A stretch of DNA of 64,000 bases from the NCBI RefSeq assembly GCF_033807715.1, contig NC_084609.1, forward strand, positions 34,458,850 to 34,522,849. The letters run 5' to 3'. The DNA is from Cololabis saira (taxonomy: Eukaryota; Chordata; Actinopteri; Beloniformes; Belonidae). Below the pieces are notes generated by a model. The model was not told the origin of the DNA. It ran no database searches and worked only from the letters and a program-made list of their open reading frames with translations. A program made the position numbers and the translations under genes. Shown here piece by piece: positions 23,526 through 47,305 of this stretch (positions are counted from its first letter, which is position 1; each line of letters opens with the position of its first letter).

Positions 23526-24463
23526 ATTGGCTGGCTGCTGTGGCCCTCACACCCTGTTGCTGGTCAGCGTTGTCATCACCACTCGGCTTCCGGTCCAGTA
23601 GAATTGCACCCAAGTATCCAAGGACGAGCCCACAGGTATCTGTAGCGGGTCCCGGCTGGGCCGCTAGCAGAGAAGATAATCCTGGAACCGGAGTACTGGA
23701 AACACACAAATAAAATTAGTGACACCGGACCACCTCTGCTCATTCTCCAGTCCAACGGATTATATTTATTCACATATTTTCTTTAACTGTTCACTGCAAC
23801 AATTAATTTTCTCTGTATACTGATGCATTGGTATCAACCATATGACACATTTCCAGGAAATGTATATCTTATGTTTTTCTTTCAGAAATAAACAACAAAA
23901 TAACCAATATCCTTTGCATTAAACCAAAGAAACATTTTTCTTTGTAATCATGCACAAATGTCTATAACTAATCATGTAATCTCATCAATCATGTACTGTA
24001 CACTCTTTTCTCAAACACACATCACTAATCATGTAATCTGAGCCATCATGTACAAACTTTTCTGTCTCTTACTGAAAGAGTATTTTTGTACCTAAAGTAC
24101 ATCAAGTAAATTAAGTGTTCACTTAACATAACAGAATAATAATTATTGCAGTCACTGACTCACGTTATACAACATTAACACAAATGAAAATACATAGCTG
24201 ACCGATAGCTTGAACTTTTGGCTTTGAACTCGGTCTTGCGTTACCATGGCAACAGCCGTAGCTGGTGTTAGCTTGTAGCTTAGTATCTTTAGTGCTGAGC
24301 ACCTCACTAAACAAACACTGCTGCGCTCTCTCACACACACACACACACAGTAATAATGCCCAACCTGAATCATGTATCATACACACAATTCTTAAAAACA
24401 ACCCACAAATGCCGGTGAGCCAAAATAAATAAATCAAAAGTACATGTAAAATAGCTGCGGCGG
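23526..24463. repeat. Local duplication, copy 2, left part
   Basis: Partner of 12010-14184 without the two insertions found there. Extra sequence at about 23995-24075 (a short tandem duplication around CATGTACTGTACACTC) is specific to this copy. It ends at CGGCGG (24458-24463), the left target duplication of the giant transposon, and resumes at 39994. Confidence 0.88.
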
Positions 24464-24980
24464 TATGGAGCCAAATCAGGGCCAAAAGTTTTGCTAATTT
24501 GAAAATAAAATTTGAACCTGAAAATTCTTTTTTACAGTTTCAGTTTTATTTTTTTCAGTATCAGATCTTTTTTTTTAGTTTCAAATCTTTTTATTTCAGT
24601 TTCAAATCTTTTTTTCAGTTTCAAATCTTTTTTTTTCAGTTTCTCGTCTTTTTTTTCAGTTTCAAATTTTTTTTTCAGGTTCAGACTTTTGGCCCCGATC
24701 TGGCGTGGGGGGCGTGGCATCAACTGAGAGGGGCGTGGCATCAACTGAAAGGGGCGTGGCATCAACTGAGAGGGGCGTGGCATCATGAGTGACAGCATAA
24801 CAGAGAAGGCGGGGGACGTTCCTCAGTCATGTTGCCTTCAGGAAACGTAGGTTGCAGAAGTTATCAGTAGAAGTTTGAATCAACACTGTATATACACCAT
24901 ATTCACGTGATTGGCAGTGGAAAAAACTGATATTAGTGACACATTTCTGTTTGAAAGGCTGTTTTAGACCGTACTTGGCA

Positions 24981-24998
24981 CCAATCGCAGTATAAAAG
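24981..24998 (+). promoter_or_regulatory. TIR-borne promoter of the HECT gene
   Basis: CCAAT at 24981-24985 and TATAAAAG at 24991-24998, inside the left TIR. The ancestral distance to the ATG was about 80-110 bp; the LINE now inserted between them puts the ATG 2 kb away, which should have broken the transcription unit. Confidence 0.75.
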
Positions 24999-25070
24999 CA
25001 ATAAACTATGCCAGACTGTACAGTTCAACAGCCACACTTTAAAGTTTGACATTTCCCACTTCCACATACT

Positions 25071-27005
25071 TCCTGTATTGTTCAATGTAATGATCAATGA
25101 CATCTTTACAAATTTAGATGGATGCATCAAATCAGCGCTGTACGCAGATGATGGGCCATATGGATAAGGGGAAAAAATGTGTCAACAAGCAAGTCATGTT
25201 ACATGATTTTTACAAATAAGTGCAAGATTGACATTGAGAAGCTAACACTATATGGTCAGCCGATGGAGAGGGTGAATGAGTTTAAATACCTGGGTCTATG
25301 GCTAGATCACAAATATACATGGAAAGCACACATTGAACATTTGGAAACTAAGTGCAAAAAGGTTATAAATCTACTACGGGCTGTGGCAGGCTGTGACTGG
25401 GGGGCAGATAAAAAATCATTAATTGACATATACAGGCAATTATGAGGTCAACAATAGACTATGGTTGTATAGTATATGGAGCAGCAGCAAAGACATCATT
25501 ACAAAAAGTAGACAGACTGCGGTATAGAGCATTGAGAATATGCATAGGAGCTATTAGGTCAACCCCCACTAACGCAATATTAGTAGAAGCAGGAGAGATA
25601 GCCTACCAGTGGACTTCTACTGACACTTACATACTGGGTAAGATTAAAAGGGAGTGGGGAAGAAAACCTTGCAACAATGACAATAAAGGACTGTTGGGAA
25701 TACTCTAAATTCCAGAGACATGGGTTTGGGTGGTCAAGGGATGAAAGACTGAGAATATGGAATATGGAATGGAGACATTAGAGTTCAATAAGTACACACT
25801 GATGAGTAATATACCCCCTTGGCTCTTCCCAGAAGCAAAGATAGACATGAACATACTGGAACAGAAAAAAGAATAGAGAATGAATGAAGTAGGAGTCAAA
25901 GCGAGTGTATACTTGAGAAATAGTTATTACAATTACCTGAAAATATGCACAGATGGGTCAAAAAATCTAAAGGATCATGCGGGAATAGGTGTATCTATCC
26001 CTGAGTTTGATGTAAATATCTCCAAAAGATTATTTAATCAGTTATCAGTATACACAGCAGAAATGGTGGCAGTCTATATTGGTTTACAGTGGGTGGAAGA
26101 CGTTAGTCCTGATAAGGTGGTGGTTGCACAGATTCAATAGCTGTATTGGAAAGTATACAATCAACAAAAACGTGCAGAGAAGACTTACTCATAGATATTT
26201 ATCATAGTTTATTAAGAATACAGAGATGTGGCATAGACATACAGTTCTGTTGGTACCAGCACATGAGGGAGTAACAGGGAACGAGGAGCTGATAAACTAG
26301 CAAAAATGGCACTGCAAAGGGAAATAACAATACCAGTTGTACTAGGAAAAGGAGAAGGTAAAGCAGTAATAAAGAAGAAAGGAATGGAAATGGCAGAAAA
26401 GGTGGGAGGAAGATCAGAAAGGACAGGGATATCACAAAATACAGAAGTCTATCATAACAAAGGATTATACAGAAAGGAACATAAGGGATGAAATAGTCAT
26501 ACCAAGACTCAGACTGGACCACACAGGATTAAATAGCACTTTGTATGTTATGGGAAAAAGGGATGGTGATAAGTGTGAGAACTGTGGAGTAAAAGAAAAC
26601 AGTGAACATATTCTAATGTATTGCAACAGATGAAATAGAAAGAGAAAGGCTACAGGAAAAAGTGAGAGAGGCAGAACCAGAGTGGAATTAAAGGGAGATA
26701 CTGGGAACAGAGGGAGAGGGGGTTGGAATCACCAGAAAGGCACTCATTCATTTCTTAAAGACACTAGGCTGATAAATAGAATTTAAAACAGGCTAAATGA
26801 AATGATTTTACACACTCTTGTACAGTAGGTGGCGGTATGAACTTTAAAGTTGTTTGTGATCCGTCAATAAAACAGAGAAGAAGAAGAAGAACTTACACCT
26901 CAGCTATACAGGTTATACCGATTTTATTAATAGATCCATGGGTTATACATTTTATACAGTTTAAATACAGTATACAGTGTATATACAATTTCTAAAAGAT
27001 CTCTG
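25071..27005 (+). mobile_element. I/Nimb-like LINE fragment with RT tail and RNase H
   Basis: Flanked by the 12-bp direct repeat CTTCCACATACT (25059-25070, 27006-27017). It starts inside a reverse transcriptase just before the YADD active-site motif (near 25140). A C-terminal RT/thumb region follows (FKYLGLWLDHKYTWKAHIEH; then MRSTIDYGCIVYGAAAK), and then an RNase H-like region with ICTDGSK and YTAEMVAVYIGLQW (25880-26140). Stops and frameshifts break it into at least three frames. The region ends near a (GAA)n tail at 26875-26892, typical of Nimb-type LINEs; about 110 bp of AT-rich sequence follows before the duplicated target. Confidence 0.82.
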
Positions 27006-27153
27006 CTTCCACATACTACGATACTATTTCAGTATCGTTTGCGATGTCGTCCGTTCCGCCAGGACAAGCCGCGGGCCCCAGCACTCAGGTAAGAAATGTT
27101 ACTTTTTCAATAGATGCTCTGGGGAAATATCTTAAAAATTAGAATGATGTAAG

Positions 27154-27214
<61 letters not shown>

Positions 27215-27300
27215 AGCATCCGTATTAATGATGCCATGGGTGTGAACAAGTTCTCTCGTCTGACTTATGTCTGACTTGGCAATAAAGCCTTTTCTGATTC
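27154..27300. mobile_element. (AT)n tract plus LINE 3' tail
   Basis: About 55 bp of AT repeats, then sequence ending CAATAAAGCCTTTTCTGATTCTGA, an L2/Rex1-style tail. It is absent from the right TIR. Confidence 0.6.
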
Positions 27301-27329
27301 TGAAAGCTGGAGATTAAACATAGGGCTAG

Positions 27330-27716
27330 TGTAGCTACACCGGTTCAACAAAGGCCACGATTCAAACTGATGTCTTGATTTACGTTCTTTTATTCTCCTT
27401 TTCCTCCGCAAAATCATAGAACAGCGTGAAAACGTTTGCGCCTCTTGAGCGCAGTGTAATTATTCTCATCCCGTGTCGCGCCTTCCTGCCTCCATTGTCT
27501 GTGGTCCCGCGTTTTTCTATTGACCCCCAATCCCTCAGTTGACCCTCACGACAGACCAGGGGAAGCGACCACACCCTTTCAAAATAATATATCCTAAACT
27601 CTCTTATTAATCAATTTAAACACTTTATGAACTTGGATATATTTGTGTTTTTTATATCATGTAAAATGTTATAAAATGAATTCTAAACAACGAACTCTGT
27701 CTCACAGACAGTTACA
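27330..27716 (+). mobile_element. Solo LTR, 387 bp
   Basis: It starts TGTAGCTACACC and ends GACAGTTACA (TG...CA), flanked by the 5-bp direct repeat GCTAG (27325-27329, 27717-27721). The right TIR has uninterrupted GGGCTAGCATTAACTAG at the matching place. No internal retroelement genes remain, so it is a recombined solo LTR. Family unknown. Orientation is not certain. Confidence 0.85.
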
Positions 27717-29790
27717 GCTAGCATTAACTAGCCTTATGTTAATCGCTAGTGGTTATGAGTTTTACACTCCTTACAGTGTACAGCTCGGGTATTTGTCTCT
27801 AATGTGTATTGTCTTTGTTATTAATATCTGTGTTTGTTTGCCAGAATGTCGACCATAACTGGACAGTGGCTGCAGCTGCACAGAGCCTTATAAATGTGCT
27901 CACACAGAACAGGACTCAGGGACAGCAAGTGCCAGAAAGGAAGCAGGAGCAGGGATCGTCTTCTGTTGAACAGGAGATGGCCAGGTTATATATTTTATGG
28001 AGTTTTATTTTCATGTTCATTTAAATGTAATTTGACTGTTTATGTTTAATATGTATATTTAATATCATGTTTTAAACAAATATAGGATTTTTTTTTTTAA
28101 TTATGCAGATCTTTCCCTGGGTTTTTTACGAAGAAAAGCCAAATTGGAAAAAGAAAGAATCAGGGTCTGAACACATGTGGCACAGGATCTAGAAAAGCCT
28201 GGAGGCCTTTTAGCTTCTATGTGTACCTTTTGAATATCAATTCAGAGATGACCCCAACCTCCCCTGAAGAATTTGAACTTGCTCAGGCCGGACTTGGAAA
28301 ACGCTATCTGAACTTGTCCAAGGATGTGAGCCATGAAGAGGTATTGCATAAAGGAAAACACATTAGTTACAAATTGCACCTAAGTGTTTATATTTGAAGC
28401 ATCCCACTTTATCTTTGTATTAGTCTTTTCTTTAAACATGTAGACATCACCTAGTCCACCATCACCTATGTTACTGTTTCCTTAGTTCTTCACACTCCTA
28501 AAACATGAGTATCCCAAGATGCAGGAGGTGACAGGAGGATGGCTACTGTACAAGGCTACAGGTGGAGAAAACTTGTAATATAACATCCATTGTAATGCAC
28601 TGCTTTTCAAATAACTTGCCCAAACAAACACAACTGAAATTGTCTAAACAATGTTGCATTTACAGGTGGTCAGGGTAAAAGGAGACTGACGACGATTCCT
28701 CCTGATTCAGACGGATACACTGGGACCCTGATTCGCAGTGTTACGGGGACAGGGAAAAGCACCCTGTATATTGTGCCTTTACAACACACATTTGACCCGA
28801 CTCCGTTACCTCCAGATTCCATCGAGTTTCAAAGTATGCCAAAGGCACAATGCCAAACTTGCAAAGTTAATTTTCCTTTGCAGATTTTGGCCCTTCATGT
28901 CCAGGAGTGCATGGAGTCGGCAGCAGGGGATATTGACGTAAATGCGGCTATGACATATATGTGATGTTGCATTGTGCTAGTACAATTTATTTTAGATTTT
29001 GATTGTTGTTCATTGAGTTATTGCAGAATATGTGTGGGTCATTTGTAATATTTTAGACATGTCAACATGAGGTCCAGATAGTGTCTGTGACAGCTCCTCC
29101 TGTGCACTGTGACACAGAGACACCTGTTGAAGAGGTACAGTACTTAATGTTATTGTATGCACTGTGAAATGCCTACATTTTTTTATGGGACAGTTGTTAA
29201 TATTCAAACTGTTTTATCTCCATCAGAAGGTTCCGTGTCCTATCTGCTTCATGAACTTCACACCTCAGTTCTTGGAGTTCCATGCTAGCGCATGTGGAGA
29301 AAGGTATTTGAGATGGTTTATGTTCATTTTAAATGTATATGTTATTTATAGTACTTATTTTTTTATATTAGTACCAAAACATGTCTCCGCTGTACTTTTT
29401 AGAAAGGAAGATCTTGAGATGCCTGAGACATCTGCCATGATCCAGGACAATGTGGAGGAGCAGCTCAAAAGGTAAGTACTCTTTCATTCTACAAGGATCT
29501 CTACAGAGCTTTTGGAGTCAACATTAGTAGTTTTCATCCGTTCATTTTGACTTTTGTTTGGCAGTGTTGATGATGTATTGGATACCATTTGTCAAAGAAT
29601 TGATGTTGAGAAAGAGTTCACAATCCAAATCTCAAGAAGGAACATTTTGGAGAGAGGCCTTCTGCAGTGGCAACGTCAAAAGAAAAAATCACCCACTTCT
29701 ACTCTGAAAGTGACCTTCTTTGGGGAGGCAGGAGTGGACACAGGTGCTCTCCCAAAAGAATTTCTCACAGGTAAAACAAAAACAAATATA

Positions 29791-30332
29791 TACCGTATTG
29801 GCCTGAATATAAGACGGTGTTTTTTGCATTGAAATAAGACTGAAAAAGTGGGTGTCGTCTTACATTCGGGGTCTAGACGTTATACCCATTTACACCGCTA
29901 GATGGCGCCAGATATCTTTAAAGCGAATGCTGAATTTAACTCCCCAGGCCCAAGCCAACCCCTGTCACGAAGAAGAAAAATAAAAAAATAGTATAAGAAA
30001 GAAAAGAGAATAAAATAAGAGAAGAGATAACAGAAAGTGGAGAAACGTAGCGACAATCTGGAGAAAAGAGGGTGGAAGTTGGGCAGGTAAACCGGCAGCT
30101 GAGGAGAAGTTATGATGCAAACTTCAAGATAATGATTTCAAATAGTCAAAGTAACATGCATTTTCTCTCGAATATATTGTTATAATCATTTGTTTCAGAT
30201 GTACTGTAATTATTTTCTGAATAATTGAAAAATTGAATTTGGTGTTCAAAAAGTCTTTCTTCAAACTTGAGTCTTGAAAAAGAGGGGGTCGTCTTATAAT
30301 CGGGGTTGTCTTATATTCGGGACAATACGGTA
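29791..30332. mobile_element. MITE with TACCGTATTG ends in HECT intron 9
   Basis: TACCGTATTGGCCTGAATAT on the left mirrors the right end ATTCGGGACAATACGGTA. Repeated GTCTTA(C/T)ATTCGGG motifs lie inside. TA at each end may be the target duplication. It sits 20 bp after the exon 9 donor. Confidence 0.75.
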
Positions 30333-31067
30333 TTTACATTCTCATGTTGACTCTTAAGCGCCTTATAAATATAAAGTGGGTGAAAAACAGAGTCCATATA
30401 AACAGTTTTTTGAATGATGTCCTGTACTTTGGTTAAAAGGGCAGCCAACCCAAGATTTATGAAGAAAATGTACACTTTTATCATTAATATATCCACTTAT
30501 CGAAGGATCTCTGTCTTGAGTTGTGTGTTATGCTGTTAATCGTTGTACTTTTTCTATAATGTAGGCCTTCTTAAAAAAAAAGTAATATAACCCCATTCAT
30601 TTAGAGTAGTGGCAGTCTAAGACAACCAAATTAGACAACCCCAACTAAAACTATCTGGATGGCTACATAGAAATATGGTTAGACAAAACAAAACAAAAAT
30701 ATACATATTATTGTTTTGTGTATGTGCAAAACTATTTTGTGTATAGAAATGGTGGCAGGAATTGAGGGTGGTTTCTTTGAGGGACCACAGCATCAGAAGA
30801 GTCCACGATACTCTCTGACTGACTTCTACAGTGGCCTCTACAGGTGGGTTTATTTTTATGCAAGTAAGGACAAATTATTCCTTTTTGGTAAATGTTTTCT
30901 AACATATGTAATACATTAATGCTCAATTTGTGTAAATAGGACTGTTGGACAGATTCTGGCTGTTAGTTTGGCTCAAGGTGGCCCGGCTCCTGCCTTTTTC
31001 AGCCCATGGACTTAGTTACCTCTGCACTGGGCAGATAAACCCGACAGTTATTAACATTGATGCAGTG

Positions 31068-31074
31068 TTTGGTT

Positions 31075-31151
<77 letters not shown>

Positions 31152-31167
31152 GTCATTTAGTCACATG

Positions 31168-31211
<44 letters not shown>

Positions 31212-31715
31212 CATGATCATATACATACACACACACACACATAGACATACACACTGGCTTGTTCACCTGCATGCTGGCTCTCTAGTTTTTGGGTTTAGGT
31301 AGCGGTAGCGATAGCTTAGCTCAGACTGCGATCAGATCTCAAGATTTAGGTCGATTGCTGTTATTGTTTTGGTTGGCTCCGTGCCGGTTTCGTGTTTTGT
31401 TTGTGGTTTTTTGTTGCAGATTTCCAGTGCTTGACGTGTGTCTCCGTGTGCTCCTGCTTCCTGGATTGGTAGTGGATGTCGTCACCCCCCCCCCCCCCAC
31501 CCCCTCCCCCCCCCCCCCAAAAAAAAAAAAAAAAAAAAGCTGGGTTTGTATGTGTATATTTATGTATGTGTACGCATATGTGTGCGTATATATATGTATA
31601 TATTACATATAGTAATAATGCACATATATACACTTTTGGTTTCTACCGTCATGGTATCAATCAATAATATGTGTGCAGACAAGGTAAAAAAAAAATAGAA
31701 AAAAAAACAAAAAAA
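31068..31715 (+). mobile_element. Retro-insert in HECT exon 11
   Basis: A 648-bp insert flanked by the 15-bp duplication AACATTGATGCAGTG (31053-31067, 31716-31730). It contains two (CA)n tracts, GC-rich sequence with C and A runs and an A-rich 3' end, consistent with a LINE-mobilised transcript. No coding domain was recognised. Removing it restores the continuity of exon 11, which fixes its borders. Confidence 0.88.
31079..31212. repeat. (CA)n microsatellites
   Basis: Two CA tracts (31079-31146, 31170-31209) inside the retro-insert. Confidence 0.95.
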
Positions 31716-32792
31716 AACATTGATGCAGTGGCAGATGTCCAGTTGCGAGAATTAATTGAGCAGGTATGACCCTATATGATGGAAATGCTGAGTTAATGAA
31801 AAAAAGCATTCCTTGTCAAATGATATTGTTATATGTTTACATGGAATATGGCAAAGATGTTCTTCCTGTTTTTTTTTTTTTTTTCCCAATTGTCAGGTTA
31901 AGTTGTCGACTGAGCATTCAATTGGAGGCCTATCTGATGAAATCTTCAATTGCGGATATACTGGAGCCATCTCCGTTCAAAACAAGGAGTCCATTATTGG
32001 GTATGCTAGAACACATATTTCTGTTTGTATAGGAAAATATAATGCATGAGTAAGGTTTTGTAGGAATTTTTCTCTTTTCCACTATTGTAGTGCCATCATA
32101 CTCCACGCAGTGCTGAGGTTGCAGCCTATGTTGGAACAACTAAGGGAAGGCCGGCTGTATGACCTTCTCTCACTGATCAGGCAGTACCCAGATATCTGCC
32201 AGCCCTTGTTTGTTCCCGGGGAAGATGTAAAAGTGAGCAAAACAAGAGTGACCCTTTATTATTATGAACAAGACACACTTACTTGCTATGAACTTTCATA
32301 AATAAACGGTGACATAATTTACATCTTGATTTTATCTCATCAGGTCAATGCAGAGTTTGTCATGGCATCCATTCTTCCTCAACTAAGTGACAAAGGGACG
32401 AGCAGGCATCAGGTTGAGCTAGAGATGATGAACTTTGTTCAGGACTTTCTTTATGAAGTTGAAGGTAAAAACAGTTTTTGATTTCCTGCATTTCATAAAT
32501 GCTGACATATTTGAGTGTTTTCGTGACGAAAGATTTAAGTTTATGACTGCTTGTAGTCTTTAAAAATAACCAGCTACCACCTGTAGTTATACTGGTATTG
32601 AACAGGTTAAACTTTTATTCTCCTTGAAAAAATCTTGATGATTGTAATTGTAAGGTATTATTTGCCAGGATACTGTGTCTTTTAAAATGATAGTCCAGCA
32701 TCTCTCAGCTTTTTTGGGCTGAGCAAGGCCATAATCACAATAAGCATACATTTAGAACGTGATGGAAGACATATTCAGATCTTTGACTAAAG

Positions 32793-33016
32793 CAGTGGTT
32801 CTCAACTCCGGTCCTCGGGACCCCCTGCCCTGCATGTTTTAGATGTTTCCCTGCTTCAGCACACCGTGATACAAGGAGCTGTGTCAACAACAGAACTGTC
32901 CAGACTTTGATGACAAGCTGGTGATGACTCTTAATTAGAATCAGGTGTGTTGATGCAGGGAAACATCTAAGACATGCAGGGCAGGGGGTCCCGAGGACCG
33001 GAGTTGAGAACCACTG
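32793..33016. mobile_element. hAT MITE in HECT intron 14, 224 bp
   Basis: CAGTGGTTCTCAACTCCGGT on the left and ACCGGAGTTGAGAACCACTG on the right are perfect inverted ends, with the 8-bp duplication GACTAAAG (32785-32792, 33017-33024). Related copies occur at about 38993-39172 and 59445-59615. Confidence 0.93.
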
Positions 33017-33953
33017 GACTAAAGTAAAAGTAGCAATACCACAGTGTAAAAATGCTTTGTTACAAGTAAAAAGTCCTGCACTCAAAATTTTAAGTCAAAG
33101 TACAAAATTATTAGCATCAAAATATACTTAAAGTAGCAAAAGTAAAAGTAGTCATTGTGCAGAATGGCTCATATCATGTTATTGGACGATAATTATTGAT
33201 GCATTAATGTGTTCATCACTTTAGTGTTGCAGCTGGGAAAGGTGGAGCTAATTTTAATTACTTTATATACTGGGAAGCTCAACCTATACAAATATAATTA
33301 GCTGATTTATTATATTTGCAAAGTAACTAAAGCTGTCAAATGTAAGTACCTCAAAAAAAATAAACCTCTAGTTCTTAATTAAAATTTTAACAAAGACAAA
33401 TCTGTCTCCAGTCTACGTAGAAAGGCGTATTGCTAATAATAAAACACATCATGCAATTTAAAAACCATTGTGCTTGGCTGAGATAGTCAATTATCTCCAA
33501 ACCTCATGAATTCACACATTTGAATTATTTTTAGGACCAGGAGCTGCTTTGTGGCTGAGAGTACCTCTCTCTGACCCCCTTCTTTAAATTCAAGAACTGC
33601 ATACTGTCACATAACACTTTTTTTTTTTAATCTATTTGCTTCATAGATGAAGATCAGGAGCATATGACAGACAAAGATGGTCCACATCCCATCACACCTG
33701 CAAGGTTTCTGCAGTGGATCACAGGCCAAGGTCACATCCCACTTCTTCCCTCAGAAAAGAAGGATTTCTCCGTACTAATCAAATTTAACCATGACTGCAG
33801 TGCAGACTTTGGCCATCACAGTGTCTGTTACCCTGTTGTGTCGGCATGTGCCAAGACTATTGTGCTACTGTGAGACATATGAGGTCCTATGACCAATTCA
33901 AAAAGGTTATCACGGAGGCTTTTCATCTAGGCCAAGAATTTAGCAATGTATAG

Positions 33954-35078
33954 CAACCAATGTTAGCTGCCTCTGGTTTTTAAAGTGAAACTAGAACCTA
34001 CATGTTTAGCACCCACTGCTACTATTCTGTCCTCGCAGTACGTTTCAGCTTCTTCAACTAGACAGATGGCTAACGTTCTGAAGAAAAGGAGAGGCTGAAG
34101 AAATTATTTTGTTTGAGGATTTCTTCTCTTTTGGTCCTCAGTTTTATTTCTTGTATTTCTCTCCAGTTCAATCAGTTATTATTTTTGTAAGACTGCATAC
34201 AAATAAAGATAAACATTACTACAAATAATGTCTGTTATATCTGGATGCTTTTCACACAAACATATTTACATAGTAAGATGGCAACAAACATAAGCAGCAA
34301 TAACATTAATGTCACTTTTTCTAACGCTATTACTTAACTATTAAACTATTACTATTAAACAGATAAATAAAGCAGCTAAATCGCTGTGACGGACTAACTG
34401 GCGTCCTCTGGTGGACAAATAAAAACACTGCGCTGCCACGATAAAAGTGACAAACTACGTTAAGAAATAACAACCAAATTTGAACTGTAAGTAAGAGTGT
34501 ACACTACAAATCATAGTAAACTTAACAATATAACATGTCATTACTTACAGACAAAGATTTACCAAGCTCCGTTTGAGAGACAACTTGTAACTGTGTTCAT
34601 GCTGCGTTTTCCAGCCCCGTTACCATGGTAACCGTTAACGTCGCCGGAGCTGCACGCGTCTGTCTCAGAAAACAGTCAGACTAGGAACGTTACTAGTTCA
34701 CCGCAGGGCGGAACAGCTACTGTTGTACTACTCTATGTTCTGGTTAAGAAAAACATTCTTAGTAATACTGCGTTCCAAGATCTTGCCATATTTGGAGAGA
34801 GAAATGTGTTATGTTTAATGGCAATACTGTTGACCAGTTCTAAAAAGTAATACAGTGTTTGAAGTTTGGAAGCTTATCTTGAAACATTTCATAAGATTGA
34901 TTACTGTCCTTGAATCCTTGTCTCAGCAACATTTTGCTACCCAGAACTCTTGAGAAACAGTTTCACCATGTGGCTTCACTGTTGTCAGTCACAATAAATA
35001 CACATTTAAAAACACATTCATTGTGAACTTTTTGATTTTAAATTTATTAAACCCTTGAAATGCATGTAACTTTTGCAT
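33954..35078. other. Spacer between the two convergent transposon genes
   Basis: About 1.1 kb of AT-rich DNA. AATAAA at 34202-34207 probably ends the HECT transcript, and the complement of 35042-35047 (AATAAA) ends the integrase transcript. No further frame with a recognised domain was found, so no third gene is supported. Confidence 0.6.
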
Positions 35079-35973
35079 CTAGGATACACAATTTAGTGCA
35101 TAGTTCAATACAGCTAAATAAATGTGTGGAGCGTATGAGTCAGAGGTCCTCGTAACATCAATAGTGGTACTAAGGCCTGCCATATCCTGCTCACATAGGG
35201 GACTTGCAACAGGTGGAAGAATCACTCCAGAACTGGTCGCATCTGGCTCACTGGCAGTGTTGAAATGAAGATCTGCATCCTCAATTTCCTACATTTAAAA
35301 ACAGATTTCAAAATGAAAAAAAAAAAAATGTGTCATAGAAAACAGGGGACATACAGTAAAACTAAAAAGGACTAGTAGATATTAAGTAGATCAACATGTG
35401 AACAGAACTGATACTATGCTGATGAAAGTATCAACATAGTCATCAGTTCTTTTGCTTTTACAATGTGGTCAAAGAAATAGAAGCCTCATTCAGCTTTTGA
35501 ACAGTTCACCTATCAAGAGGTTATTCAGAGGTCTAACTTTATACATAATGCATGTTTCATGTAATTATAAACAGTGCATATATTGCATTTTAATCATCAA
35601 CTTGATATTAGAAAGCATTTTTTTTAAAGTTCTCTGCTATTTGTATTTGAATAAAATTAGCTCCGTTATTTTTCATTTACTTGATGCTGGTGATTGGAGA
35701 CCACTTTGAAACCTCTGTTTTTGTAAATGACAAAGTGATGATACTAAAAAAATTAATATTGAATTATCATTCCCCAAATTTTAATTACTAGTGTAAAAAT
35801 ACAGTTGTACTTCCAGGTTTCTTCATGATACAAGTTTTGAGGGCTTCCTTTACAGTGTTGTAAAGCAGTTTTAAGCACAACGCTTGTCTAAAATCTTTCA
35901 AATGAAATGGTGTGAGCATTGTAATTATATGATATAGGAAAACTGGACAAAAGTATAACAGTGCACCATGTTT

Positions 35974-37138
35974 TAGTGATGCACCGAAATGAAAATTTGT
36001 GGCCGAAACCGAAACTAATAATAAACACTTGGCCGAATACCGAACAATACCGAACATGGTTCTTCGCAGTTTTTCATTTATTTTGCCAATTTTTTCACCA
36101 TTGCATAAATCAAATAAATGTGATTTAGGCATGCTTTTAAAAGAAAAAAATCTTTTACAAAATTACAAGGTAGAAAACATTTGTTGAACATAAAAAACTG
36201 AACATTTTTTTAATTTCCCAGCATTTCTTAAATATTCCAGCAGACATTATACCAGCAAATAACAATAACTTAAGATAAATAAATTAGCAAAATACATTTT
36301 TTATGATTTCAAAAGATAAATCAAACTTGTAGTGCTGAAAGACTTTGCAGATGTGCCCCCTCTAGATATTTGAGCAGAACATTCATTGCAAACAGTCATT
36401 CTTGTTTTATTCTTTGCCACTCTAAAATACTTCCACACTGCTGACATGTTTGCACCACTTCACTCCACGCTCTTTGCCGTTTGATTTCCTCATCTAAACG
36501 CACCTGTAATAGATTGATTTATGTTGTTTTGGTTCCACCTGCTGGTGAATGTTAGGTAAAATTCTTATGTGGCTAGTTTTTGGTTGGCCAACTATTTATG
36601 TGGTGCGCAATCATAACGGGAGCGTTATGTGGCTAGTTTTTGGTTGGCCAACTATTTATGTGGTGCGCAATCATTACGGGAGCGTTATGTGGCTAGTTTT
36701 TTAGTTGGCCAACTATTTATGTGGTGCGCAATCATTACGGGAGCGTTATGTAGCTAGTTTTTGGTAGGCCAACTATTTATGTGGTGCGCAATCATTACGG
36801 GAGCGTTATGTGGCTAGTTTTTTAGTTGGCCAACTATTTATGTGGTGCGCAATCATTACGGGAGCGTTATGTAGCTAGTTTTTGGTAGGCCAACTATTTA
36901 TGTGGTGCGCAATCATTACGGGAGCGTTATGTGGCTAGTTTTTGGTTGGCCAACTATTTATGTGGTGCGCCACAGTTACGGAGCGGCCGGTCTATTTATA
37001 TTACAACGCCGTTATTAATTGTTCGGTTTTTTTTCCCCACTTATTCCACCGAACACCGAAAGTGTTTTTTTGCCATTTTCGGCCGAACAATTTCGGTTAC
37101 CGAACAATTTCGGTTACCGAACAATCGGTGCATCACTA
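35974..37138. mobile_element. hAT element, 1,165 bp, in an integrase intron
   Basis: TAGTGATGCACCGAAATGAA and the inverse CGGTGCATCACTA are the ends, flanked by perfect CCATGTTT duplications (35966-35973, 37139-37146). The outer parts repeat TACCGAACAA. The middle has a 60-bp tandem array. No transposase frame was seen. Confidence 0.94.
36550..36970. repeat. 60-61-bp tandem array inside the hAT
   Basis: About seven copies of GTTATGTGGCTAGTTTTTGG plus TTGGCCAACTATTTATGTGG plus TGCGCAATCATTACGGGAGC, each containing the palindrome GTTGGCCAAC. Confidence 0.92.
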
Positions 37139-38992
37139 CCATGTTTGCTTAAAAAATACTTTTAATTGGTACCTCTGCCAGGTCTGGAGCATCAACAGGA
37201 TTCTCGAGGAGTCCCAATGTCCACAGTTGTTGTGGGGACATATTTTGCTCTGTTCCAACCCACCCGGAAGACATCAAGATCCCTCTGCAGACGTGGAAGA
37301 AATACATGCTGGGCACAAAACAAGTGGATGCTATCAGAAGGATCTAGAACACCTTCATCCTCAAGGCTGTGAAGAACCTCGTAGTGCACGTTTGAAACAG
37401 CCATCCACACATCTCGCCACAAATGCTCTATTCTGTTAAAAACAAATTACCCTCAAATTTGTACAGTATATTTGATAAAGTATGACTGTGGAAGGCAACA
37501 TCTGACATGATTAATTCTACTGAATATTATTTAAAAAAAAAAATATATATACACACCTTTGATTGTGCACACTCTTTCCTGACAGGAAACTTCCCCTTCC
37601 ACAGCCTCTAATAGTGAACATGCATCGTGCTATGCCAACATTTTCCACTCCTTGGTCACCTCTTACTCTAGAGAGACACACACACACACACACACACACA
37701 GACACACACTTGTGTCAGTTTGTCCCGGTAGGCTGCTCTGTGACTATAAATCATATGCCTTGTTAACAGCAGATCAGCTGCACAGATGAATGCCATACAG
37801 TTATTGCCATGCACACAGTTATTTGTTACTTGATATCATTCATTTCCCACCCGTATTGCTTTCATTTTTCACATAGTTCTTATCAAACAGACTTTTCATA
37901 GATTTATTTAACTTAGCTCACATAAGAGCTGTTAAAGTTAAATATCAGCTAAAATTAAAAGTATTTTTTTTTTTTCAAGAGTCATACAACAAACATACAT
38001 CTGGTTCCACAGCTCTGCTTCCCCTAGAGTCAACCAGCAGAAATACAGATAGCACCACTCTGCAATTGCTGACTACATTATGGTCAAAGGGGGGTATATA
38101 GTACCCGTCAAATGAAATTTGATCATCATTCGATATCCTACATGTGGTGTCCTGGCCTTCACTGACCTCACCAAATTGTCCAGTTGTTCATCAGTTAAGT
38201 TACTGTAGAACTGTATTATGGAAAGGCCATTATCGTGCATGCGCCGTTTCACTGTCCTCTCAGATACACCCAGATGTTTTGCAATGCATGACACTGGTAG
38301 AGACATTTCTATCAGGCTTTGTAGTTGCTGAGGAGACACAACACATTTTGGCCGTCCCATTTGTCCTTGCAATACTGCACCTGACTAGCGGTCAGATTAG
38401 AGTTGTCCTCTGTATTGACAAGCGTTGTAAACTCAGTCAAAGCATTGACTACATCCTGTGGCATCCCAACCTGGCCCAACGACAACCTAAAAAGAAGCAT
38501 CTCTTGGTTGACTACAAATTGTAAATAGTTTACATCTAAGGGCAGTCTTTGCGTGACCTGGGAAATTTTAGTCAGTAGTCTCTGAAGAAAGTCCCTTTTC
38601 AGTGGCTCCTAGAATAAAACAGACACCACTTTACATTACTGTACTGGCTTGATTAAATGATTTAAGTTACACACACGCATAGGCCTGTAACAAACAAACA
38701 GCATGCAAGTTATCACTTAAGACACATGTAAAGTGAGCTAAACCTTGAAGGCATCTACCATAGCCAAACTTATCAGAATACAAAAAAAGAGGACTGCAGA
38801 GATTATACAATGTAAACTAACTCTGTGAAAAGCTAACACTAACAATTAACAACTTCTGTGTGAGCACATTTATAAGGCTCTGTGCAGCAGCAGCCACTGT
38901 CGAGTTATAGTCGACATTCTGGCAAACACAGACATTAATAACAGAGACAATACACATTAGAGACAAATACCTGAGTTGTATAATGTAAGGCA

Positions 38993-39172
38993 GTGGTATC
39001 AAACTGAATCCATGGAGGGTCGGTGTCCTGCATGTTTTAGATGTCTCCCTCTTCCAACACACCTGATTCCAATGATCTCATCATCAAGCTCTGCAGAAAC
39101 CCGATAATGACCCATTCATTTGAATCAGGTGTGTTGGAAGAGGGAAAGATCTAAAACATTCAGGGACACCTC
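38993..39172. mobile_element. hAT-like MITE within the right TIR
   Basis: It starts CAGTGGTATCAAACTGAATC and contains GATGTCTCCCTCTTCCAACA mirrored by TGTTGGAAGAGGGAAAGATC. CCTTACA lies on both sides. It belongs to the same family as 32793-33016 and is absent from the left arm. Confidence 0.7.
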
Positions 39173-39480
39173 TGTGCTGTAAGGAGTGTAAAACTCAGAA
39201 CCACTAGCTAATAGGATAAAGCTAGTTAATGCTAGCCCTATGCTTAATCTCCAGCTTTCCCCACCTAAAGACGTCTTTTCCCATACGTAATTACACACGC
39301 TACACATCATTATAACTTTTAAGATATTTCCCCAGAGCATCTATTGAAAAAGTAACATTTCTTACCTGAGTGCTGGGGCCCGCGGCTTGTCCTGGCGGAA
39401 CGGACGACATCGCAAACGATACTAAAATGTCAAACTTTAAAGTGTGGCTGTTGAACTGTACAGTCTGGCATAGTTTATTG

Positions 39481-39498
39481 CTTTTATACTGCGATTGG
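39481..39498 (-). promoter_or_regulatory. TIR-borne promoter of the integrase gene
   Basis: On the minus strand CCAAT (39498-39494) and TATAAAAG (39488-39481) lie 70-80 bp before the ATG at 39410. This is the undisturbed version of the promoter in the left arm. Confidence 0.78.
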
Positions 39499-39993
39499 TG
39501 CCAAGTACGGTCTAAAACAGCCTTTCAAACAGAAATGTGTCACTAATATCAGTTTTTTCCACTGCCAATCACGTGAATATGGTGTATATACAGTGTTGAT
39601 TCAAACTTCTACTGATAACTTCTGCAACCTACGTTTCCTGAAGGCAACATGACTGAGGAACGTCCCCCGCCTTCTCTGTTCTGCTGTCACTCACGATGCC
39701 ACGCCCCTCTCAGTTGATGCCACGCCCCCCACGCCAGATCGGGGCCAAAAGTCTGAACCTGAAAAAAAAATTTGAAACTGAAAAAAAAGAAGTGAAACTG
39801 AAAAAAAAAGATGTGAAACTGAAAAAAAAAGATTTGAAACTGAAAAAAAGATTTGAAACTGAAATAAAAAGATTTGAAACTGAAAAAAAGATCTGATAAT
39901 GAAAAAAATAAAACTGAAACTGTTAAAAAGAATTTTCAGGTTCAAATTTTATTTTCAAATTAGCAAAACTTTTGGCCCTGATTTGGCTCCATA

Positions 39994-40484
39994 CGGCGGC
40001 GGCCGCCATCTTCACATACTCAGTTGTCACGTACGCTTGGATTCACTGTACTTAGGGTTAGTAAGTAAGTAACTGAACTTGTAACTTTTCCACTTTACGT
40101 CCGGGGTTTTCATATTAACTTAAAAACATCTGAAGTCACAGCAAAACATAAATAACCAACCTGAAAACACACAAATAAATCAGTGACACCGGACCACCTC
40201 TGCTCATCCTCCAGTCCAACGGATTATGAGCTTCCCGTCCTCGTCGCTGTGAAGAGTCCCAGCGGCGCGGGCCGGGGCTGGTGCTGCCACCCTGTGTCCA
40301 TTTCTGGTACTACAAGTCCTTGTGTGTTTCCTTCTTGTTCTCATTTTAGCAGGATAAAATAATAAAATAAAAAGATACAAAAACCTAAGATAGCAATAAA
40401 CCAAAAAGTGACTTCAGCAGAGATAAAACAATAATAATAACAATAATAATAATTACTACAAAAACACTTTTGTGAGTATCACAC
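39994..40484. repeat. Local duplication, copy 2, right part
   Basis: It resumes at CGGCGGCGGCCGCCATC and matches 14179-14670 until a CA/TA tract, after which similarity to copy 1 ends. Confidence 0.88.
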
Positions 40485-46205: not shown

Positions 46206-47305
46206 TATAGACAAGCAACGGACACAAGCTCATGTAAGCTACAGATCAGACCTGACAACAAAAACGGTCTATTTGCTTTTAAATAAAGAAGTGAAAGAAA
46301 GAGGCCAGAGTCCATCAGGCAGACCTGACAACACTGGTCAGTCTGACACAAGCACAGTATGTGCATCAGACATACACGGCATCATGAGCTGCTTTCACTG
46401 TCAACACAATAAAGCAGATTTTCTTCAGAGACGTCCAAAAGATGAACCGGTTATTTTACGCAGCCAAGCTCCCCCCAACATCTGGCATCTGGTTTTCCTG
46501 CTGTTCTATAAGCTTATGACCCCACTGGATCAGCTCTCAGACAGGTCTTTCATCTTTCATAGCTGCAGTAGTAGCATAGAAGCTGGGGACCTGGCTGTCA
46601 ATCATCTGCTGGAAATCACTGATCTTTCCTGCTCCTCCTTCATGACTCGCTCTACAACAATCACCGATTAAAGTCGTGACGTCCTAACTGCGTGTGAAAG
46701 AGCAGTTCTGTTTAATTGCTGCAGGCCTCCGTCTCCGTTCCCAGCTTGTTCTTCAGTGAGATCCAGCCTCCCTGGGGCATCGGCTCTATCGGGTGACAGT
46801 CCCCTGGTTTCATCACCAACGCCTGTTGTGTCTTTTAGACGCGTCATCAACCACAGTGAATTCCTCTTCATCTGGAAGAAGCTTCTGTCCCAACAGCAGC
46901 GAGAAGTCGCAGTCCTGACCTGTTTCCCATGAATCCCCATGCAAGGTCATTTGTCATATTTCCATGTGTGATTCTTCATTCTGTGATGGAGGGGTGATGC
47001 AGTTGGAGGAAGGGGTCTGGTGTAATTTTATTTTTGTAAATTTTGGTCAAGTAACACTCTGCTAGATCATTTCTCTAAGATAGATCGATACCCCTTCTTT
47101 CAGTTCTGAGGTTTTACATGTCAGGGGCAAAAGAATTACGCAACACCTGACGAGCAGCACTTACTGTACATGTTAAACTACGTCTTTACTCATGAACTAA
47201 AACCAAATGCATGACCAAGCACGACATATGATTCGGGTTCTTTGGTAATTACTCCCTGACATGTGGAACCCTTGACTTGAGAAGAGACACGTGACTGATC
47301 AGAGC
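46206..47305. other. No gene recognised
   Basis: About 1.1 kb. A 132-codon frame (46273-46671) has no recognised domain, signal or splice support and is not called as a gene. Confidence 0.4.

Follow-up and report, generated by a model that had tools for sequence, protein, structure and literature searches.

We propose that positions 24464 to 39993 of the 64-kb stretch of Cololabis saira DNA analyzed here (hereafter the window) are a decayed IS3EU-like fish transposon, in which the gene for a DDE transposase faces one for a HECT-type ubiquitin ligase and both start from a first exon carried in the inverted-repeat arms. We consider this reading likely, including its further part that the ligase is an accessory to movement or persistence of the element. 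To judge from its sequence the window copy is itself dead, with frame breaks in both genes and a transposase that lacks its first catalytic Asp (the segment holding it is absent between 38123 and 37670). Coordinates of all features are collected in Table 1.

Both genes begin with the same predicted exon

Inward translation from either arm of the element yields the identical 15 residues, MSSVPPGQAAGPSTQ, followed by the donor GTAAG, so that the two genes are predicted to begin with the same exon, one copy in each inverted repeat. A database protein at this locus, P0003 (LOC133424185, Cololabis saira), starts with these residues and runs on into the second HECT exon. Read from the tip, the order within an arm is an array of 20-21-bp units, 21-bp units containing GGGGCGTGGC, a TATA-like box, the first coding exon and a GT donor. 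The shared TATA-like box, first exon and splice donor were absent from the description of the element in an earlier note on this DNA. In addition, the integrase-side arm contains a fragment of HECT exon 2 that stops at the arm boundary, as would be expected if sequence is copied from arm to arm. The P0003 gene model ends with residues encoded at 46808-46915, about 7 kb past the element, and this tail is probably read-through or an annotation artefact.

The arms match each other most closely toward their tips. Matching blocks include 304 nt at 99%, 134 nt at 98% and 125 nt at 98% identity, with further blocks extending to 27909 and 38854. The left arm, with its insertion removed and gaps uncounted, differs from the right arm at 7 of 677 aligned positions in its outermost 750 bases, at 38 of 269 in the next 600 and at 9 of 133 at the inner edge. 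The arm length of about 1.1 kb given earlier agrees with the right arm, and the left arm has the same content interrupted by a 1.95-kb insertion. The core motif containing GGGGCGTGGC occurs four times on the left arm and twice on the right, at 39698 and 39719. The subterminal 20-21-bp arrays are possible candidates for transposase sites, and a search of Rfam gave no match.

The element has exact ends and carries later insertions

The borders are exact, as had been claimed. Specifically, the 20-bp terminus TATGGAGCCAAATCAGGGCC begins at 24464 and its reverse complement closes at 39993 with full identity, and the 9-bp tip has no other occurrence within the window. The termini read TATGG..CCATA in this one copy, which is a TA..TA pattern. 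The hexamer CGGCGG does lie directly outside both ends, but the right flank, CGGCGGCGGCC, is a triplet run, and the duplication on its own is thus weaker than it appears. The 15,530-bp span behind the label 'very large' includes five later insertions totaling about 4.5 kb, and the element without these five would be near 11 kb. Four of the five have flanking repeats, or matched ends plus a repeat, and the insertion at 29793-30330 was recognized by its inverted ends. The insertion at 35974-37138, which from its 8-bp repeat we take to be hAT-like, contains a tandem array with seven copies of a 60-bp unit. The insertion at 25059-27005 has a LINE-like look, but four of its open reading frames (ORFs) gave no Pfam match and we leave the insertion unnamed. 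Outside of the element, a 154-bp stretch at 59462-59614 matches a portion of the element's middle at 84% identity and is probably a short repeat.

Table 1. Coordinates in the window of the element, its parts and its later insertions.
Feature	Position	Strand	Details
Whole element	24464..39993	.	15,530 bp; ends TATGGAGCC..GGCTCCATA
Target duplication CGGCGG, left copy	24458..24463	+	abuts left end
Target duplication CGGCGG, right copy	39994..39999	+	abuts right end
Left inverted repeat	24464..27909	+	split by insertion 25059-27005
Right inverted repeat	38854..39993	-	1,140 bp
Subterminal array, left	24528..24690	+	20-21-bp unit TTTTTTTCAGTTTCAAATCT, ~8 copies
Subterminal array, right (mirror)	39747..39929	-	~8-9 copies
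21-bp unit GGGGCGTGGCATCAACTGAGA	24709..24785	+	3.7 copies
TATA-like box, left arm	24991..24997	+	motif only
Matching TATA-box segment, right arm	39480..39492	-	motif only
HECT-type E3 gene, broken	27044..33952	+	frame breaks near 31012 and 33868
HECT first coding exon (predicted)	27044..27088	+	MSSVPPGQAAGPSTQ then GTAAG
Second HECT exon	27845..27984	+	follows first exon in P0003
Integrase-type transposase gene, broken	35082..39410	-	frame breaks near 38377 and 37250
Integrase-side first coding exon (predicted)	39366..39410	-	MSSVPPGQAAGPSTQ then GTAAG, identical
Partial HECT exon 2 copy, integrase-side arm	38856..38921	-	ends at arm boundary
Later insertion, 1.95 kb	25059..27005	.	upstream of HECT start codon, after left TATA-like box; 12-bp repeat at 25059 and 27006 flanks it
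Later insertion	29793..30330	.	inverted ends CCGTATTG..CAATACGG
Later insertion	31054..31716	.	14-bp flanking repeat ACATTGATGCAGTG
Later short inverted-repeat insertion	32793..33016	.	CAGTGGTTCTCAACT..AGTTGAGAACCACTG
Later insertion in integrase gene	35974..37138	.	8-bp flanking repeat CCATGTTT, inverted ends

The two proteins are a DDE integrase and a predicted HECT ligase

The earlier description of a DDE integrase and a HECT ligase facing each other is right as to arrangement, with the two genes convergent and HECT on the plus strand, but neither gene is intact. The HECT query from the window, where one exon is interrupted by the 663-bp insertion at 31054-31716, matched 116 proteins (at least 7,990 candidates were scored); a source is named for 113 of these and all 113 are fishes. 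Short or partial sequences are common among the fish proteins listed. The second protein of the element is predicted to be a HECT-type ubiquitin ligase. The predicted structure and a fold search recover the bilobed HECT fold, with about 15% identity to HUWE1/NEDD4-type ligases. The catalytic Cys, which aligns with the TCFN site of ITCH, is conserved in 81 of the 83 relatives that have a residue at the site. Two C2HC fingers precede the HECT region, and their zinc ligands are kept in 93-102 of the 116 rows. Profile matches of these fingers to UBZ-like domains in the relatives are weak (RAP80 row, E 0.00035). Among full-length members identity to the first row falls to 29%. Two family members show unusual architectures: P0035 (Engraulis) has a PHD-type finger (PF23011, 1.3e-10, residues 647-691), and in a single model from Corythoichthys intestinalis, P0055, a HECT half is fused to an N-terminal half with an integrase-like helix-turn-helix, which reflects either a genuine fusion or a faulty gene model.

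In regards to the transposase, 237 relatives were matched by query and 120 of these were compared. Note that the integrase queries, both in the Pfam scan of window pieces and in the search for relatives, included segment 36405-36505, a guessed exon that was later dropped as unsupported by relatives P0117 and P0118. The IS481 and IS3 models match all 47 of 47 integrase relatives, helix-turn-helix-type profile matches lie before the integrase core, and alignment of the relatives shows conserved catalytic residues with the first D at 232 in P0118. Transposases of the IS3EU/GingerRoot group have no HHCC zinc domain in that position ahead of the core. A fold search recovered an integrase-type fold, and a PDB profile search with the integrase gave weak resolvase and helix-turn-helix rows alone.

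Viral contigs contained no relatives of either protein. Among genome contigs an integrase relative is encoded at 3 of 19 pattern matches, all three in one bin filed under a bacterial sponge symbiont (L001-L003, 3.4-4.2 kb). The contigs are probably host sponge DNA, since a named integrase relative, P0270, is from Amphimedon, and if so the transposase family reaches sponges. Examination of the three contigs by eye gave no HECT-like ORF, and their inverted pairs are short (16-35 nt).

Some HECT and integrase proteins of other fishes share their starts

We compared the first 12 residues of all 116 HECT proteins with those of all 120 integrases, which gives 13,920 pairs. Twelve pairs are identical over this length, four have 9-10 matches and the remaining 13,904 have eight or fewer. 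The two proteins of each identical pair come either from one species or from Carassius auratus and a close carp relative, and the 12 pairs involve eight HECT proteins from six species (Danio rerio, Carassius auratus, Paramisgurnus dabryanus, Triplophysa rosa, Brachyhypopomus gauderio and Acanthochromis polyacanthus); each of the four pairs with 9-10 matches is between different species. The shared prefix is 13-61 residues long and its last residue is Q or E in 10 of the 12 pairs and one G beyond a Q in the other two, with Q or E being as expected of an exon that ends in CAG or GAG before GT. Sequence beyond the prefix is unrelated in all seven pairs tested. A Nothobranchius pair from the same species, P0048/P0148, has eight N-terminal residues in common. 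Neighboring gene numbers are found for several HECT and integrase proteins (e.g. ACER0C_003057/003058 and LOC130563200/130563201). Dispersed copies are suggested by some prefix-sharing pairs whose contigs differ in length, such as P0045 with P0152 and P0203.

The Astyanax proteins P0002 (HECT) and P0118 (integrase) are 76% and 63% identical, respectively, to the window copy, with many other matches at 40-50%. From these sequences, horizontal transfer between distantly related fishes is possible.

The two proteins also diverge together. Across the window and 13 pairs from 11 species, distances in the HECT tree track those in the integrase tree (r = 0.92), a correlation not reached in any of 9,999 permutations. 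In both trees Triplophysa and Acanthochromis group with one Carassius and one Brachyhypopomus pair, and Danio and Paramisgurnus group with the second pair of each of these two genera. This split of the two Carassius and two Brachyhypopomus pairs over two clades indicates that the trees follow element lineages and not hosts.

Several observations weigh against the proposed reading. The termini and the 6-bp duplication are known from the window copy alone. The Pfam HECT match is weak, with window pieces at E 0.018, below the cut-off, and E <= 0.01 in 14 of 38 relatives. Among 11 same-contig pairs only two share a long prefix. Two others share four residues, MQSQ and MQSE, which is weak since exactly four are shared in 16 of the 13,920 pairs, and seven have no more than the initial Met in common (P0012/P0120, P0050/P0175, P0070/P0145, P0001/P0134, P0005/P0131, P0004/P0168 and P0063/P0144); among these seven are several truncated models and, by reading, two pairs that look like members of different subfamilies. 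The pairs from other fishes come from protein records that include many automatic gene models, and two proteins were taken to be on the same contig when the lengths and names of their contigs agreed. In the co-divergence analysis Fundulus is placed differently in the HECT and integrase trees, branching inside the clades differs in places, and the trees carry no support values. The pairs were picked by common N-terminus or common contig, and this choice by subfamily means that part of the tree agreement is built in. Note also that the D. mawsoni pair used P0131 rather than the adjacent gene P0158, and that partners in the two Carassius pairs and in the Paramisgurnus and Acanthochromis pairs are listed on contigs that differ in length.

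Roles of the ligase and alternative explanations

The recurrence of the pair with common N-termini, the distance correlation, the conserved catalytic residues and the recovered folds make the HECT ligase look like a resident partner rather than chance cargo. The HECT gene of the earlier note is thus real, but calling it cargo probably understates its place in the element, given that the pairing recurs in other fishes. In the model that we favor, matched promoters in the arms would fire inward so that both proteins carry a common leader peptide. The transposase would bind the subterminal 20-bp arrays, excise the element and insert it at cuts staggered by 6 bp. The HECT protein would accept ubiquitin on the conserved Cys and, aided by the pair of UBZ-like C2HC fingers, tag a host factor involved in silencing or repair for removal; the nature of this target is a guess. 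The arms would be kept matched by inter-arm copying, and this would explain the observed identity of the shared exon within an element together with its divergence between element families. A bolder version, which we offer only tentatively, is that the inverted repeat is itself the shared gene start, giving both proteins a common N-terminal tag and in-step production, and that the ligase is obligatory for transposition and clears the element's DNA of host silencing or repair proteins.

The main rival to host-factor removal is an action of the HECT protein within its own element, namely ubiquitination of the transposase that either limits its dose or dismantles the transposase-DNA complex after joining. 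This we regard as rather unlikely, though it has several attractions: matched promoter segments and a common N-terminal peptide would couple the two proteins, the UBZ-like fingers (weak by profile) would suit it, and so would the co-divergence with r of 0.92, except that linkage alone also predicts co-divergence. Host-factor removal remains the favored role. A one-time capture of the HECT gene, which would since then have been a passenger without a role, is improbable. The gene is broken in the window copy and short or incomplete proteins are frequent among those listed from fishes, as might be expected of a passenger, but its catalytic Cys and zinc-finger ligands have been kept to the extent given above despite identity as low as 29%.

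More improbable still is that two host genes (zgc:112970 and zgc:174680 in zebrafish-style names) lie by chance inside an inverted duplication. NCBI does give such gene names in several fishes. Nevertheless, this explanation is at odds with the exact TA..TA ends and 6-bp duplication, with the two Carassius and two Brachyhypopomus pairs falling in two different clades of both trees, with the same first residues being found on contigs of unequal length within one species, and with 90%-identity clusters of up to 103 (HECT) and 70 (integrase) members, counts that may include between-database repeats. Finally, Polinton/Maverick elements carry polymerase B, capsid and packaging ATPase genes, and it is very unlikely that the element belongs to this or another group with 6-bp duplications, for although the duplication, long inverted repeats and integrase would fit, the IS481 and IS3 models match every transposase relative scanned and none of the 37 window ORFs of at least 80 aa resembles a polymerase, capsid or ATPase when read by eye only.

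If the proposed reading is true, a vertebrate DNA transposon family makes its own ubiquitin ligase, which would offer a direct way into the question of how animal transposons cope with host defence or regulate their transposase. The mirror-exon layout would explain the identical starts of two otherwise unrelated 'uncharacterized' fish proteins, and fish genes named 'G2/M phase-specific E3 ubiquitin-protein ligase-like' would become recognizable as transposon genes.

Comparison with known systems

Searches of the open-licence PubMed Central literature found no paper with both IS3EU and HECT; Repbase was outside of this scope and such entries may exist there. The same literature gave nothing on topic for IS3EU with ubiquitin, judged by title, and nothing related, in the portions retrieved, for HECT domain with transposase and DNA transposons; broader searches gave nothing on topic among the matches listed. 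In the excerpts obtained, a killifish paper treats IS3EU by abundance and a coelacanth paper uses 'integrase core domain' for retroviruses.

The element is a good fit to IS3EU by its ends, duplication length and transposase type, a placement based on these three features. IS3EU families are described, in the available part of one source, as having TA..TA ends and usually 6-bp duplications, and IS3EU/GingerRoot elements as having an IS3/IS481-like DDE transposase in which 100-300 residues separate the N-terminus from the first D (PMC10045372). The excerpted account of fungal TET+ IS3EU elements gives TAYGG..CCRTA ends and oppositely oriented transposase and alpha-kinase genes (PMC12730594). These two sources bear out the TAY...RTA ends and 6-bp duplication that the earlier note had given as IS3EU traits, and its IS3EU-like label stands on the same features. 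The fish element thus resembles IS3EU/GingerRoot in its TA..TA ends, 6-bp duplication and IS3/IS481-like DDE transposase, and resembles the fungal TET+ elements, as excerpted, in opposite gene orientation. It differs in that its accessory gene codes for a HECT ligase and not for the TET dioxygenase or alpha-kinase of these accounts, and in that its long arms carry a shared coding exon. Membership in Ginger1 or Ginger2 was rejected, as their duplications are given in the excerpt as 4 bp and 4-5 bp, respectively (PMC10045372), versus 6 bp here.

Compared with HUWE1/NEDD4-type HECT E3 ligases, the element's protein has both HECT-fold lobes and the catalytic Cys site, but it is only about 15% identical to them, has two C2HC fingers in front and has a transposase gene as its partner. 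Going by a partial text, the closest earlier case that we found of a DNA transposon with a modifier-pathway domain is that of plant Vandal/Kaonashi MULEs, which carry the anti-silencing gene VANC, some with a Ulp1 domain (PMC13317346). These are likewise DNA transposons with an added gene, in their case one that acts against silencing; however, Ulp1 is not an E3 and no HECT is named in that text.

The transposase of maize MuDR belongs to a different superfamily from that of the fish element. In layout the two are alike, as MuDR has two convergent genes, for a transposase and a second protein, with inverted-repeat promoters, which are predicted in the fish element. The portion of the MuDR account consulted gives arms of about 215 bp and states that the function of the mudrB product is unknown (PMC3440606). 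In contrast to the MuDR features described there, which include no shared coding exon, the arms of the fish element would supply both genes with the same first exon.

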